Notes under the pieces: model-generated
The model's input: only the letters and a program-made list of their open reading frames with translations
Database searches by the model: none
Told to the model about the DNA's origin: nothing
Source: Bdellovibrionales bacterium
GTDB taxonomy: Bacteria > Bdellovibrionota > Bdellovibrionia > Bdellovibrionales > UBA1609
NCBI GenBank assembly: GCA_027459485.1
Contig: DAIDIG010000002.1
Coordinates: forward strand, 62,001 to 126,000
Direction of reading: 5' to 3'
Length of the DNA: 64,000 bases
Program-made: the position numbers and the translations under genes
Part shown: piece by piece, positions 52,453 through 64,000 of the stretch
How positions within the stretch are numbered: the first letter of the stretch is position 1
How the letters are laid out: every line of letters starts with the position of its first letter

Positions 52453-52537
52453 GCCCGGGTGGTGGAATTGGCAGACACGCTAGACTTAGGATCTAGTGCC
52501 GAAAGGTGTGCAGGTTCAAGTCCTGTCCCGGGTACCA
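52453..52537 (+). tRNA. tRNA-Leu (anticodon UAG)
   Basis: The acceptor stem GCCCGGG pairs with CCCGGGT (52527-52533). The anticodon stem CTAGA/TCTAG encloses loop CTTAGGA with anticodon TAG at 52487-52489. A class II variable arm and the T arm CAGG-TTCAAGT-CCTG follow. The 3' CCA is encoded (52535-52537). The last 22 bases also encode, antisense, the end of the recombinase gene. Confidence 0.95.
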
Positions 52538-54192
52538 AATGTCAAGCAAGAAGAACTGAAATCCCCTGATAGTTTATTTTTCGCTGCGACGTGTGTGGGC
52601 CGAGCGCCGGCCGCAAGGGCCAGCGCTCGTTTGTAGTGATCTTCGTCGACGATAAAGTGAATTTTGACTGAATCGACGCCAAGTTCGATTTTATCAATGA
52701 AATTTTTAACAAGCCGTTTACGTTGAACGACGTCGGCGGAGTGATCGATAAACTGTCGATAGTGTTTGGCGAAAGATTCGAACGTATCGAGGCCAACAAT
52801 CCGGTCATAAGCGTTTTTGCCTTCCGTCTTTAGGTTTTTAAGCTGAAGCTCGTGGTCGTCTTTTAACGCTTGAAGCTTTTCCATCTGCTTATAGATCGGT
52901 GCCGCTGAAACGGATTTCGGGAGTTCGGCGAGGCGCTCTGAAAGAACGTCGATCTGACTTTCAATGCTCATGATCTTCACCTTAATTCGCTCGATATCTT
53001 TGCGCTCAGGATTTTGCTCATGATGTTTTCTGACTTTTACGAGAAGAGCTTTCATGGCGGCAGGGTCGGTCATGAATTCCGAAATCTTGCTCCAAACGAG
53101 AGGCTCAAGCTTCTTGGCTGGGATTCGGTGCGGTTCGCAGTGAAATCTCTTTTTCGTCAAAGCCGAATCTTTTTTGGAAGCCCACGAGTGCTCATAATAG
53201 CCGACTTTAGTGGTATTGCCGGTCGCGGATTTGCCGACCATATTTTGGTGACAGGTTTGGCAGACGGTTACTCCTGAAAGAGTGTACGGCAGCTTGTATT
53301 GCCTATGCAGCTTATACCCGCTCCGATTCTTATCGAGTATTTTGCCGACGAGCCTAAAAGTCGTTTCGTCGATGATCGGCGGCCAAGCCGCTTTAACCTC
53401 TTTCACCTCATCTTTGTGCTTGTAGCATTTAACACCGGTGTAGGATTTCAAGCGCAAAATATTGAGCAGGCTTTCGACCGTGAATATGCCCGACCGTTTA
53501 AAGTTGCCGCCGCCCTGTCGACGCCGGGTGAAAACGTAGCCGTTGTCGTTGAGCCACCGTGCTGCGTGAGATAGACATCCCTCGCGCTGAATCGCAACGA
53601 ATGCCGCCCGCACAGTTTTGGCCGCCTCTTCGTCGATATCTAAATAGCCGGGGCGCCCTTCTATCAGTTTATAACCGAACGGAACCGACCCGCCGTTAAA
53701 GAGACCGCGCGCCGAGCGAGCTAAAAAGTTCGCCTGAACGCGTTCAGAGGTTTGTCGTCGTTCAAATTGGGCAAGATTCATCAGCTGAAATAGCACAAGC
53801 TCGCCGGCGGCGTTCGTGGTGTCGAAGTCTTCACGAAGGCTCGTGAACTGGCAACCGTGCTCGCGCATCATGTCCCACATTTCAATAAAGTCGCGGGTGT
53901 TGCGCGAGAGCCGTGAGAGTTCAGTGACCATCACAAGGTCGATCTCTTTGGCACGAATAGCCGCCAGCAGTTCTTGAAGCTTCGGCCGCTTCATGTTCTT
54001 TGCCGATATGCCCGCGTCGATATAGACGCCCTTTATTTCGCCGAAGTTGTAATGGCTGTTTTTGTAAGTGACGGCATGTCGCAGTCGATCTTCTTGATTA
54101 CGTATCGAACCTTCGGGGTTCTCGGCTTGCTCTTCGGTACTTACGCGAATATAGAGCGCGATCTTAAACGGTTGTTTGCTTTTTAACGACAT
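52516..54192 (-). CDS. large serine recombinase (integrase) ending inside tRNA-Leu
   Basis: The 558-residue protein has an N-terminal resolvase domain (ALYIRVSTEEQ, Ser18 nucleophile; SRLSRNTRDFIEMWD; FERRQTSERVQ) and a recombinase domain (VPFGYKLIEGRPGYLDIDEE). A zinc-ribbon-like segment (CQTCHQNMVGKS) and a coiled coil with YKQMEKLQALKDDHELQLKN follow. Such enzymes integrate mobile elements. The last codons (FGTRDRT) and stop TGA at 52516-52518 lie inside the tRNA 3' end, so the gene sits exactly at an element end. ATG 54192 overlaps the stop of a 65-residue ORF. Confidence 0.92.
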   Translation of the reverse strand: MSLKSKQPFKIALYIRVSTEEQAENPEGSIRNQEDRLRHAVTYKNSHYNFGEIKGVYIDAGISAKNMKRPKLQELLAAIRAKEIDLVMVTELSRLSRNTRDFIEMWDMMREHGCQFTSLREDFDTTNAAGELVLFQLMNLAQFERRQTSERVQANFLARSARGLFNGGSVPFGYKLIEGRPGYLDIDEEAAKTVRAAFVAIQREGCLSHAARWLNDNGYVFTRRRQGGGNFKRSGIFTVESLLNILRLKSYTGVKCYKHKDEVKEVKAAWPPIIDETTFRLVGKILDKNRSGYKLHRQYKLPYTLSGVTVCQTCHQNMVGKSATGNTTKVGYYEHSWASKKDSALTKKRFHCEPHRIPAKKLEPLVWSKISEFMTDPAAMKALLVKVRKHHEQNPERKDIERIKVKIMSIESQIDVLSERLAELPKSVSAAPIYKQMEKLQALKDDHELQLKNLKTEGKNAYDRIVGLDTFESFAKHYRQFIDHSADVVQRKRLVKNFIDKIELGVDSVKIHFIVDEDHYKRALALAAGARPTHVAAKNKLSGDFSSSCLTFGTRDRT

Positions 54193-54389
54193 TAGGTACC
54201 TGCACTTTCTGTCAAAGACGATGACGTCACTGACGATTGAGTTACAGGAACCTCGGCAGAATCTAGCGAGAGCTGGCAAAAGTGACGATAAACCGTATCG
54301 GCCCAGCTTTCAAGACGCAGATTGTATTCTTCAGCAGAGACAGCAGTAGAGCAGATTTGAACTTGAGACACATCCCACTTTCTCTTCAT
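54192..54389 (-). CDS. 65-residue ORF translationally coupled to the recombinase
   Basis: Starts MKRKWDVSQVQICSTAVSAE with a good AGAGAGG site. Its TAA overlaps the recombinase ATG (TAATG). The product ends in a Ser/Thr-rich tail (VTQSSVTSSSLTESAG) and has no membrane helix. No family is recognised. It might be a regulator or directionality factor of the recombinase (inference from coupling only). Confidence 0.55.
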   Translation of the reverse strand: MKRKWDVSQVQICSTAVSAEEYNLRLESWADTVYRHFCQLSLDSAEVPVTQSSVTSSSLTESAGT

Positions 54390-54573: not shown

Positions 54574-55368
54574 TCAACTTACACGTGCGGATTTCACCTC
54601 CTGTTCATTACGCCGACTGCCCACCCACTGAGCAGGGGAGTGAGCAGGCATCCAGAGCTTAGTTAGCGGTTGCGATTGCCCGCTAAAATGGACTAGCGAA
54701 TTAGCCGGGTCTTCGATGACATCGTCGACAAGCGACCAAAAGAACACGGGGCGAGCGTCATTTCGTTTGTCGATGTACCATAGTTTTTCAATCTGTTTCG
54801 CGAGCGATGGAGTGGATGTTAAGTACCAAACGCCGAGGATGTTCTCTTTGGTTCTGTACTCATAAAAGTTGTGTCGGTAGCGGCGCGAATTCTTGCCATG
54901 AAGCTCAAGCTCAATCGCCAAAGACTCTTTTACCCCTTGCCACTCGACTCCCATGATGCCGTCTGGGATGAGGCGATCTTTCGCCCGTTCAACTCCATGT
55001 TTGGCGGCGACACGATATCGAATTTCATGCTCGGGTACCCATGATTGAACGGCTCGGATGCTCTCAAGAGCCAGTCGTACAGCGGTCAGTTTGGTGTCAT
55101 GCTCAAGTAAGTAGCGCGACTGATGCCACTTCGGCGGCAGGTTTGAAACGACAGTCGAGCCTTTTTCGGTGAGTGTCCAAGCCTGCTCGTAAGTCTCGAG
55201 CCCGGGGTTTCGTCTGATGTACATTTGCTTTTCAAGCTTGCGCAATCGCCTCAGCACGGTCGTGAGTTGCACATCCGGAAACACCGTGCGTGCCACTTGC
55301 CGCGTCGTCATAACCGCATAGCTGAGAAGCTTTTCGAAAAGAACCTTATCTCGTTGAGTTAAAACCAT
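54574..55368 (-). CDS. replication-relaxation family-like protein
   Basis: The 264 residues have an N-terminal winged-helix part (LTQRDKVLFEKLLSYAVMTT; VLRRLRKLEKQMYIRRNP) and a second domain. This contains LLEHDTKLTAVRLALESI, RLIPDGIMGVEWQGVKE and LAIELELHGKNSRRY, the pattern of the plasmid replication-relaxation/MobC-like family (nuclease-like D...E.E). It is likely a DNA-binding factor for replication or transfer of the element. The adjacent 109-bp inverted repeat is a possible target. Confidence 0.65.
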   Translation of the reverse strand: MVLTQRDKVLFEKLLSYAVMTTRQVARTVFPDVQLTTVLRRLRKLEKQMYIRRNPGLETYEQAWTLTEKGSTVVSNLPPKWHQSRYLLEHDTKLTAVRLALESIRAVQSWVPEHEIRYRVAAKHGVERAKDRLIPDGIMGVEWQGVKESLAIELELHGKNSRRYRHNFYEYRTKENILGVWYLTSTPSLAKQIEKLWYIDKRNDARPVFFWSLVDDVIEDPANSLVHFSGQSQPLTKLWMPAHSPAQWVGSRRNEQEVKSARVS

Positions 55369-55930: not shown

Positions 55931-55963
55931 GTAATAAAAACAGACTCAGTCTGATTTTATTAC
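55931..55963. terminator. 33-bp near-perfect palindrome, bidirectional terminator
   Basis: The two 16-base arms (GTAATAAAAACAGACT and AGTCTGATTTTATTAC) around C55947 differ at one position. The core CAGAC-TCA-GTCTG forms a hairpin. On the minus strand it is followed by TTTTTATTA; on the plus strand by ATTTTATT. It would end the ATPase transcript (stop at 56063) before the membrane-protein operon. Confidence 0.65.
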
Positions 55964-56062: not shown

Positions 56063-57580
56063 TTAGGTTATCGTTTGATTATCAAAAAATAGCGACTGCG
56101 CTAGTGTATTTGCGCGATCAGACAAATCGCCCTTTAGAGACTGAACATATAGAAAATAGATATCGCGACAAATTATCGAGTTTTCTTTTCCGCTTCGCAT
56201 GTGCAGAGCTTGAAGAAGCTCCTGAACCATTTTTTTGCTGTTGTCCCTAAGATCTTTACCAGTGGTCGACAATACTGAGTCAGCGCGGGCGCTATCGAAT
56301 GGTATTTGACTGCGAGGTACATTTAGTTTGGTGCAGATCTGATCCAAAGCGTTTTTCTGATCCGTTAGCCAATGCAGTAATCCAACTTCTGGCGTAACCG
56401 GGAGAAACTTGAACTGACCCTTATTATTTTTTAGATAGGATCTTGACGAGTTTTCCAACTGAACCTGCGCCAGTGTCTCCTCCACATCTTGATCTAAGAC
56501 CCCGAAGCGCCTGGTGGAATCGTTAAGCATCCTGGGAGTCGCCTCAATGAATTTTACAACCTGTGAAGCCCCGCCAATTTTAATGTTTGAATACTGTGGT
56601 ACGCGACTTGATTGCCCAGAAAAAGATGCCTTGAATTTGTCTATGATAGCCTCTAACAAAAAATCGGAATGGTCATCTTCTACAAAAAAAATGACATCTT
56701 TGGCCGATTCTTCAGTGAATGCTACTTGCCCTAAAATATATGATGGGAAACAAGAGTAACAGGCCTTAACATCTCCATCGACGACATCTAGAAATATTAG
56801 TCTTTTTCTGTCAGCTGATTTTATTAGCGTAACTGAGTGAGAGGATAGCAATATAATAAGGTCTTTTTCGGCCGCGATCTTTTTCAAAACACTCAATAAT
56901 TTTACCTGGGCCCTCGGGTGAAGGGCCAGTTCGACTTCGTCGATTAAAATTAAGGATTTAGGCGGCTGTTTTAAGACCGTTCGAATCAGTTTAAGAACGC
57001 AGATTTCGCCCAAACTAAAGTTTCTTTCTGAAAAATAGGCTTTTTTGGTTGGCGCCGTAGTAGTTTCGATTAACAGTGCTTCGCTCATCCCACGAGTGGC
57101 GTTGACTCTTCTTAAATTATTGAATCGCGTTGTATCAAAAATCTCGTTGGCATATTTAATCAAATTTGGGTCAGCGGTTTTAATTTTCTTAGTTTTTAGG
57201 TCCTCTTGGCGAGGTTGGATTCGATCAGGATCGGCGGCAATATGAGCGATAGACCCAAATGGAGCTTGTTCAAACAGCTTCGCATTTTTTCTTGGGGTCG
57301 GTACCCACCGTTCGTTTACGTATTCATATGAAACTTTGCTGCCGTTAATCGTATAAGTTATTTTTGCGCCAACAAAAGAATCTACGCGGCCCTTTGGCGA
57401 GAGCGAAGCCTTAAAATATTTTGGGAATGCCATCGGGTTTCGTATCCTAAGAATGCATGTTAGGAGCGACGATTTTCCGGAACCGTTTAGGCCAGTTAGG
57501 ACCCATACGCCAGACTCAGGTAGTTCGAACTCAAGGTTTTTAAGGCTCTTTAAATTACTGATCTCAATCTTACAGCTCAA
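56063..57580 (-). CDS. ABC-type ATPase with TOPRIM-like C-terminus (OLD/PARIS-like; defence candidate)
   Basis: About 505 residues from TTG 57580 (GGGGGAT upstream); GTG 57592 is an alternative. The N-terminal ATPase has Walker A GLNGSGKSS (residues 30-38), a signature region FSLGEICVLKL, Walker B SLILIDEVELALHP and a switch LLSSHSV. The second half has VIFFVEDDHSDFLLEAII and FGVLDQDVEE, reminiscent of TOPRIM motifs (Glu, then DxD), as in OLD nucleases and AriB. A helical C-terminus follows. It is paired with an upstream small gene in an integrated element, typical of defence cassettes. Function is inferred. Confidence 0.65.
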   Translation of the reverse strand: MSCKIEISNLKSLKNLEFELPESGVWVLTGLNGSGKSSLLTCILRIRNPMAFPKYFKASLSPKGRVDSFVGAKITYTINGSKVSYEYVNERWVPTPRKNAKLFEQAPFGSIAHIAADPDRIQPRQEDLKTKKIKTADPNLIKYANEIFDTTRFNNLRRVNATRGMSEALLIETTTAPTKKAYFSERNFSLGEICVLKLIRTVLKQPPKSLILIDEVELALHPRAQVKLLSVLKKIAAEKDLIILLSSHSVTLIKSADRKRLIFLDVVDGDVKACYSCFPSYILGQVAFTEESAKDVIFFVEDDHSDFLLEAIIDKFKASFSGQSSRVPQYSNIKIGGASQVVKFIEATPRMLNDSTRRFGVLDQDVEETLAQVQLENSSRSYLKNNKGQFKFLPVTPEVGLLHWLTDQKNALDQICTKLNVPRSQIPFDSARADSVLSTTGKDLRDNSKKMVQELLQALHMRSGKENSIICRDIYFLYVQSLKGDLSDRANTLAQSLFFDNQTIT

Positions 57581-57627
57581 CTGATCCCCCACAGAACATA
57601 AGATAATCAAGAACGTAGATACTTGAA

Positions 57628-57659
57628 GACCTTGCATGTTCGGTCGGCCATGCAAGGTC
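57628..57659. promoter_or_regulatory. perfect 11-bp inverted repeat between the two cassette genes
   Basis: GACCTTGCATG (57628-57638) and CATGCAAGGTC (57649-57659) enclose a 10-base loop. It sits in the 86-base gap between the small gene's stop and the ATPase start. No T-run follows, so it is more likely a regulatory hairpin or protein site than a terminator. Confidence 0.6.
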
Positions 57660-57666
57660 AAAGCGG

Positions 57667-58251
57667 TTAATCTTGAGTTTTAACGATCATCGGCCATTGA
57701 GCCTTGTCCCAAGTCTCTGTGTTTAAATCACTACAATACGGGAATAAGAACATGCCGAGGCGATGTAGTTCACTGCGGCTCAGTCCATTTTCCGGTATCT
57801 CAATCTTTACTTCGAAGTCGGGGCGTATCGGGAGTGACAGCCGGCGAGTGGTGGGCTCATCTTTCAATTTGGAAGACGGCTTTTCGACCTTTAGGTCCGG
57901 TTTTTTCGACTTGGCCTGTGTGGTCGATTTTGTTCCGCGAGAGGTCAGAGATCGTTCCCATGCGGCAGGGTCTTGCTTCCAACTAAAAAAGTCATCCAGG
58001 GCTTTTCGAACTCTAGATTTGTAGACCTCGAGACTCTGACCTTTATATTTAGTGGCGTTATGGTTGCAAAATCGCTTGTAAAGAATGTCAAAGTTCTCTT
58101 CTATGTGATCGAGATTCTGCTCTTTTTCATCCAATCCTTCAAAAAAGCTTTTGCATGCAGTTTTTCTCGAAGACGCAGTGTTTTTCGGCAAGATCGCCTT
58201 ATTTTCAACGTGGTCTAAGAAGTTGTAGAGATCATTTACGGACAGATTCAT
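57667..58251 (-). CDS. core-binding-domain-like partner protein of the ATPase cassette
   Basis: The 194 residues have an N-terminal helical domain (about 1-95: LSVNDLYNFLDHVENKAILP ... YKGQSLEVYKSRVRKALDDF) resembling the SAM-like core-binding domain of tyrosine recombinases. There is no catalytic domain. A Lys-rich linker (STTQAKSKKPDLKVEKPSSK) and a C-terminal segment (LPIRPDFEVKIEIPENGLSR) follow. It lies 86 bases upstream of the ATPase on the same strand. ATG 58251 with GGGGGAAA is chosen. Probably the sensor or DNA-binding half of a two-gene system. Confidence 0.6.
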   Translation of the reverse strand: MNLSVNDLYNFLDHVENKAILPKNTASSRKTACKSFFEGLDEKEQNLDHIEENFDILYKRFCNHNATKYKGQSLEVYKSRVRKALDDFFSWKQDPAAWERSLTSRGTKSTTQAKSKKPDLKVEKPSSKLKDEPTTRRLSLPIRPDFEVKIEIPENGLSRSELHRLGMFLFPYCSDLNTETWDKAQWPMIVKTQD

Positions 58252-58590: not shown

Positions 58591-58806
58591 TTACCCCGCC
58601 CAATCCAGTTTCAGCTTCTTCTTCTTGTGCACGCAATCCAACAGGTACATGTCGATCAGCTTTTGATAGGGGATGCTGGTTTCGGCGCTCAAACTTTTAA
58701 AGTAATCGATGACTTCGGGGCTCAAGTTGATGCCGACGCCGATCTTTTTACCCTTTAGAGGGTTTGCGACCTCTTTCATTTTTGAAAAATTATATTCCTT
58801 CTTCAT
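58591..58806 (-). CDS. brnA: BrnA-like antitoxin (ribbon-helix-helix)
   Basis: The 71 residues start MKKEYNFSKMKEVANPLKGK, then the CopG/BrnA pattern VGINLSPEVIDYFKSLSAET and SIPYQKLIDMYLLDCV. It neutralises the BrnT toxin and represses the operon by binding DNA as a dimer. It overlaps the brnT frame by 17 bases, the usual brnTA arrangement. The start at 58806 matches family size. Confidence 0.8.
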   Translation of the reverse strand: MKKEYNFSKMKEVANPLKGKKIGVGINLSPEVIDYFKSLSAETSIPYQKLIDMYLLDCVHKKKKLKLDWAG

Positions 58807-59073
58807 AAAAACGCCTTTCTCGCTTCGTCGCTCGTCTTGCCGAAATGATTCGAACTTTATCAAGCGGCCCGCGGTAGCAATGCACAACGACTAATATTCG
58901 GTTTTCAGAACTGTATCCAATGGCGATGTACCGTTCTTCATACGTTGAATGGCTGTCATCGACGAAAAAGCGAATGTTCGGGGCGGTGAAAACTTGCTGT
59001 GCTTCTTCAAACCAAACACCGTGCTTTTTGCGATTCGCTTTGTTCTTTTTTCGTCCCATTCAAATCGGACCAA
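58790..59073 (-). pseudogene. brnT: BrnT-like toxin gene with a frame break at an A6 tract
   Basis: The expected BrnT start VRFEWDEK is read from TTG 59073 (GAGG upstream). The rest (KNKANRKKHGVWFEEAQQVF ... RIISARRATKRERRFYEEG) is in the -1 frame. The switch falls at the A6 tract 59046-59051; one extra A would restore a full 90-94-residue BrnT ribonuclease. An internal ATG at 59059 could still express a version lacking the FEWD strand. It may be a true pseudogene, an assembly error, or slippage-dependent expression. Confidence 0.75.
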
Positions 59074-63347: not shown

Positions 63348-64000
63348 TTAAAAGTGTAAGCCCTGAATGGCAGCTGCATGCTCGATCGAAAGAATCTGTG
63401 GCAAATCAGCAGGGAGCTTGGGCCGGACGAGTCGAGTTTTTGGGCCTGAGCCTTGAGCCTCGAGCCAGCGCGCGTAAGCATAAAAGCGCATCAAATAATT
63501 GTTCAATTCGGCTCGCTGAGCTTCATTGAGACGTGATAGCGTGTCAATAAACTCATTCAAATTTGCGTTGCCTGTTTGGCTGGCCACTTTGTTCGAACGA
63601 ACGTCGTGGTAAATATGCTCGATCTCAGCGAGCCGGTCGATAATTTCACCGCGAATCTGTAACTCAGCAGGTATACCCGACGGCAGCATGAGATTTAAAT
63701 TCAAACTCGTATACCCCGAGGTTTTAAACGCCGAACCTTGCTTGATTTCGAGATCCATCGCTTCGCCGGCCATCCCGATTGCCTGGAGCATGCGCGATAA
63801 CTGATTTTTGTTCAGGTAGGGTTTTGCGCCGGGCGCATGATAATTATGAATTTCTGTCACTCGAATTGAACCGCTCTCGATTCGACGGATCAATGTGTTG
63901 ACTATCGAATTCATCAAATCGCGTAGTGGCTTTTGTGATGAGTCACGCGGCTCTTTGAGGACGATTCTAAAGCCGATACCGTCGCCGATAACCTCTTGAG
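63348..64000 (-). CDS. RelA/SpoT-domain protein (C-terminal part; continues beyond the right edge)
   Basis: 217 residues are visible; the frame is open to the right edge. The segment GDGIGFRIVLKEPRDSS resembles the RSH synthetase core, as do SGYTSLNLNLMLPSGIPAEL and the following QIRGEIIDRLAEIEHIYHDV (compare GYxSLH...VEIQIR...AEIEH). Synthetase-type RelA/SpoT domains make (p)ppGpp or related nucleotides; some are toxins (toxSAS) or tRNA pyrophosphorylators. The N-terminal catalytic half is out of the window. It has no obvious partner gene and is convergent with the large exported gene. Confidence 0.7.
   Translation of the reverse strand, partial: QEVIGDGIGFRIVLKEPRDSSQKPLRDLMNSIVNTLIRRIESGSIRVTEIHNYHAPGAKPYLNKNQLSRMLQAIGMAGEAMDLEIKQGSAFKTSGYTSLNLNLMLPSGIPAELQIRGEIIDRLAEIEHIYHDVRSNKVASQTGNANLNEFIDTLSRLNEAQRAELNNYLMRFYAYARWLEAQGSGPKTRLVRPKLPADLPQILSIEHAAAIQGLHF

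Follow-up and report, generated by a model that had tools for sequence, protein, structure and literature searches.

A fused OLD-like ATPase-TOPRIM gene on a Bdellovibrionales mobile element, probably single-gene anti-phage cargo beside a small orphan gene

Two neighbouring genes on an integrated element of a Bdellovibrionales bacterium, one encoding a small protein and the other an ATPase joined to a TOPRIM-like half, had been put forward in a preliminary description as a two-gene defence candidate. This raises the question of whether the genes form a functional pair or simply lie side by side. Features of the locus are given with their positions in the window, that is, the whole 64-kb stretch of DNA analysed.

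52453..52537, + strand: tRNA-Leu, probable integration site
52516..54279, - strand: large serine recombinase (integrase) of the mobile element, abutting the tRNA-Leu
54574..55368, - strand: replication-relaxation / MobC-like protein of the element
55931..55963, no strand assigned: bidirectional intrinsic-terminator-like inverted repeat with 16-nt arms and T-runs on both strands, downstream of the ATPase gene
56063..57580, - strand: OLD-like ABC ATPase with fused C-terminal TOPRIM, 505 aa; likely TTG start at 57580 with GGGGG ahead of it
57628..57659, no strand assigned: perfect intergenic 11-bp inverted repeat with a 10-nt loop, forming a strong hairpin (z -5.4) without a T-run
57667..58251, - strand: small orphan protein, 194 aa, with an ATG start behind a good ribosome-binding site
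58591..59059, - strand: type II toxin-antitoxin pair BrnT-BrnA, cargo next to the small gene on its upstream side

Two real ORFs on the same (-) strand were confirmed where the preliminary description had placed them. The mechanically called ATPase ORF reaches 57661, and because relatives show nothing equivalent to its first 27 codons the TTG at 57580, with which the conserved start of the ATPase coincides, appears from sequence comparison to be the likelier start. With this start the gap between the small gene and the ATPase gene is 86 nt. The inverted repeat in this gap has no other copy within the 64-kb window and is a candidate processing site, regulatory site or operator. The GC content of the ATPase gene is 42% and that of the small gene 44%, compared with 52 +/- 2.5% in background windows, a shortfall in line with foreign cargo, and the two genes probably share one transcript.

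The tRNA-Leu is a used integration site, since the serine-recombinase gene abuts it and a 57-bp duplicate of the tRNA-Leu 3' end is present approximately 2.3 kb further on in a sister species (L114). The suggestion that the pair sits in an integrated element with its own terminator is in keeping with this site and with the terminator-like repeat at 55931-55963, with the qualification that no second copy of the tRNA-Leu was found within the 64-kb window. This tRNA-Leu, located behind gcvH, is a hotspot of integration. A 189-aa ORF at 63348-63917 has a homologue (L113, 37% identity) in a sister genome, where it lies approximately 1.1 kb beyond the corresponding tRNA-Leu, and this homologue could help to locate the element's right end.

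The ATPase contains the sequences GLNGSGKSS, SLGE and LIDEVELALHP, corresponding to the Walker A, signature and Walker B/D-loop motifs of an ABC ATPase and kept in 14 homologues. Alignment with 14 homologues indicated an intact ABC head in which G35-K36, S189xG191, D214-E215 and H248 (the H-loop) are invariant. The VED...LDQD sequence of the second half corresponds to the E...DxD of a TOPRIM domain, with residues E301 and D363xD365 (numbered from the TTG start) likewise invariant in 14 homologues. A Pfam match to AAA_21/AAA_15 was observed, and the best PADLOC model was ATPase-Toprim_I-B (7.7e-37, residues 30-401 of the mechanical ORF), which spans both halves, followed by NsnB, mad3 and HEC-04, the last (2.3e-19) also spanning both halves. 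Matches to the AriA, AriAB, PtuA and Old models were confined to the generic ATPase head, and a PARIS-like arrangement, to which the pair had been likened, is not supported.

Comparison with P2 Old by hhalign (96.4%, E 1.2e-9) aligned Walker B together with the TOPRIM glutamate and aspartates. An AlphaFold model of the ATPase (pLDDT 84) gave as its top Foldseek match the OLD nuclease of Thermus scotoductus (6p74, E 6.8e-12), with both halves aligned at a poor rmsd, and a second structural comparison covered only residues 1-291, the ATPase head. The order of secondary-structure elements in the model fits TOPRIM, and the TOPRIM half is supported by motif, profile and secondary-structure order rather than by superposition. 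These data bear out the OLD likeness and the combination of ABC/OLD motifs with a TOPRIM-like half that had been proposed, and they run against the possibility, also raised there, that the second half lacks a TOPRIM fold. A match to PDC-M46A (E 0.011) led nowhere.

The nearest relatives of the ATPase, at 36-42% identity, occur singly as cargo of prophages and of one plasmid. Nine relatives in viral contigs (36-42% identity) were all cargo without a partner-like gene nearby; L081 and L082 carry it in inverted orientation, flanked by phage tail genes, and in L079 and L080 it lies behind a 228-aa gene that belongs to another phage family (phrog_3412). The nearest plasmid relative (39%), from an Agrobacterium plasmid, stands alone and adjoins a restriction-type island. 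A sensitive profile search of 31 loci detected no partner-like protein near ATPase relatives. Of the 369 genomes of the phylum, one held the ATPase. At 24% identity, a distant ATPase-TOPRIM relative annotated as an AbiEii toxin is ORF1 at the accessory end of the Pf filamentous phage PfAC13 (L051).

The small protein consists of an N-terminal core-binding-like (SAM-like) helical domain (residues 1-105), a disordered linker and a hairpin plus helix (136-172), with a motif in its C-terminal part that is invariant in the family. The best structural match of the helical domain was the lambda Int core-binding domain (Z 6.7, 3.0 A, 86 residues), with Cre also among the top matches; the match is modest, with a Z under 8 and SRP next at 5.5. 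Members of this family of approximately 200 aa showed no Phage_integrase match, no R-H-R-Y and no catalytic domain, in agreement with the core-binding-like fold without catalysis first noticed in this protein. When the small protein alone was searched with Foldseek, no significant match was found in PDB or BFVD. Neither tblastn of phage and plasmid records, which gave no credible match, nor scans of viral contigs, for which the protein and its alignment served as queries, recovered a relative, and PHROG 2602 matched 12 of 15 family members weakly.

The small-protein family was present in 17 of the 369 genomes of the phylum, and a search of genome contigs for its conserved motif yielded 11 loci on contigs that, judged by length, the whole-genome search had already recovered. 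Within one family of genomes most copies are conserved chromosomal genes flanked by PilZ and HAD-hydrolase (phosphatase) genes; chromosomal relatives in this PilZ/HAD-phosphatase block were seen at L022, L024-L026, L028-L032 and L034. The closest relative (L021, 43% identity) lies on a separate mobile element that also bears a tyrosine integrase and a type IIG restriction gene. Behind this relative come an unrelated gene of 261 aa and then one of 128 aa (L021:4681-8287). A profile comparison of the small protein with the L021 tyrosine integrase found nothing. The product of the 261-aa gene contains the sequence RNKRNILH, which looks HEPN-like by eye, and matches a winged-helix domain weakly.

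As the ATPase occurs in one genome of the phylum only, conservation of the pair was assessed from the small-protein side. A whole-genome search (E 1e-10) found the ATPase to be absent from all 16 other carriers of the small protein. Because the small gene occurs in these 16 genomes without the ATPase, the pair most likely represents an ordinary neighbourhood and not the new two-gene defence system that had been envisaged. The nine viral relatives and the one plasmid relative of the ATPase have no partner-like protein nearby, and the two genes were not found together elsewhere, an outcome that the preliminary description had itself named as refuting the pair. The relatives of the ATPase are lone genes, and here it has a neighbour that does not co-occur with it elsewhere. 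The small protein belongs to an orphan family of its own and is probably not required by the ATPase. It is most likely a DNA-binding accessory or regulatory protein brought into the same operon by cargo assembly.

A true two-gene system, in which the core-binding-like protein would recognise DNA and recruit or restrain the ATPase-TOPRIM nuclease in the manner of the partners in Gabija, Septu and WonAB, is consistent with the operon-like order and the low GC common to both genes, and with the fact that the 43% relative is again borne by a mobile element, where it precedes a different gene and has a type IIG restriction gene close by. Set against this, the remaining carriers lack the ATPase and the ATPase relatives stand alone, and we consider such a system unlikely. 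A broader proposal holds that the small protein is a recombinase-derived, portable DNA-recognising module which mobile elements of the phylum couple to interchangeable effectors, the ATPase-TOPRIM here and the unrelated 261-aa protein in L021, and which in one family has also become an established chromosomal gene; this appears improbable. It is possible, if not favoured, that the small protein acts as a transcriptional autorepressor of the cargo operon with the 11-bp repeat or an upstream site as its putative operator, a role suggested by a core-binding-like fold that is DNA-binding in recombinases and by the perfect inverted repeat in the gap. The uniqueness of this repeat in the window argues against autorepression, as does the finding that a promoter motif apparently shared with the L021 copy is not above shuffles. 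This motif, sought in the two element-borne copies of the small gene, was rejected as 269 of 1000 shuffles were as good. Autorepression is compatible with the ATPase being single-gene cargo, since it names only the role of the small protein.

The ATPase might instead be a house-keeping or DNA-repair protein of the OLD type, like archaeal Cran1, rather than a defence protein. OLD-family ATPases with non-defence roles exist (PMC12796447). The sporadic occurrence of the gene (1 of 369 genomes), its low GC, its location on a mobile element and its relatives in prophages and on plasmids all argue against such a role, to which we assign little probability. The interpretation that we favour, and regard as probable, is that the ATPase gene is single-gene OLD-like anti-phage cargo of the mobile element, encoding heads that would sense infection and a TOPRIM that would cut nucleic acid, with a neighbour that is not obligatory and is likely accessory. 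Against this, the two genes are close, co-oriented, alike in low GC and probably on one transcript, so a functional link within this particular element is possible.

By analogy with OLD proteins, the ABC heads of a single-gene system would probably dimerise on ATP, and the ATP-bound heads would sense a state linked to infection. This signal would license the TOPRIM domain, which would cut nucleic acid, either DNA or RNA, with the result that infection would be aborted. The target of P2 Old is DNA (PMC10568477), and that of the AriB TOPRIM of PARIS is tRNA (PMC12409363). The ATPase activity, nuclease activity and anti-phage effect of the protein are predicted, as is DNA binding by the small protein.

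Among known proteins, the helical N-domain of the small protein resembles the core-binding domain of the tyrosine recombinases lambda Int and Cre, from which the protein differs in having no catalytic domain and in belonging to a family of approximately 200 aa with its own C-terminal motif; the analysis flags a small family resembling a recombinase DNA-binding domain without catalysis. WonAB (PMC12137116) is an operon of two genes, one of them for an OLD-type ABC ATPase, but WonB is a PD-(D/E)xK nuclease, whereas in the present locus the nuclease half is joined to the ATPase and the adjacent small protein is core-binding-like. With PARIS (AriA/AriB and fused AriAB) the protein shares a generic ATPase head and the logic of a TOPRIM-type nuclease, although profile matches stop at the ATPase and there is neither a separate AriB nor a DUF4435 match. 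No helicase is located next to the ATPase gene. The type I-B retron effector (class 3 OLD) provides the best PADLOC profile, and a profile match to an RT-linked ATPase of Alteromonas was also obtained; a type I-B retron was rejected, as no reverse transcriptase or known ncRNA adjoins the ATPase gene.

Class 1 OLD proteins (P2 Old and Thermus scotoductus OLD) have the same ABC ATPase and C-terminal TOPRIM, and the TOPRIM residues align with those of P2 Old, although the class 1 proteins are remote in sequence. The ATPase is best grouped with the single-gene ATPase-TOPRIM proteins, among them HEC-04/IbfA, whose role in anti-phage defence has been demonstrated experimentally (PMC12111858). HEC-04/IbfA has the same domain order and a similar length (518 versus 505 aa) and is a single gene on mobile elements. 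The HEC-04 profile matches the ATPase with an E of 2.3e-19, compared with 9e-42 for IbfA of plasmid R64 itself, and hhalign with R64 IbfA (99.5%) extends through the TOPRIM DxD, although identity is only 24% and ATPase-Toprim_I-B scores better. To this group, whose role in defence when acting alone is thinly documented, the locus adds an intact member from a phylum in which 1 of 369 sampled genomes carries the gene.
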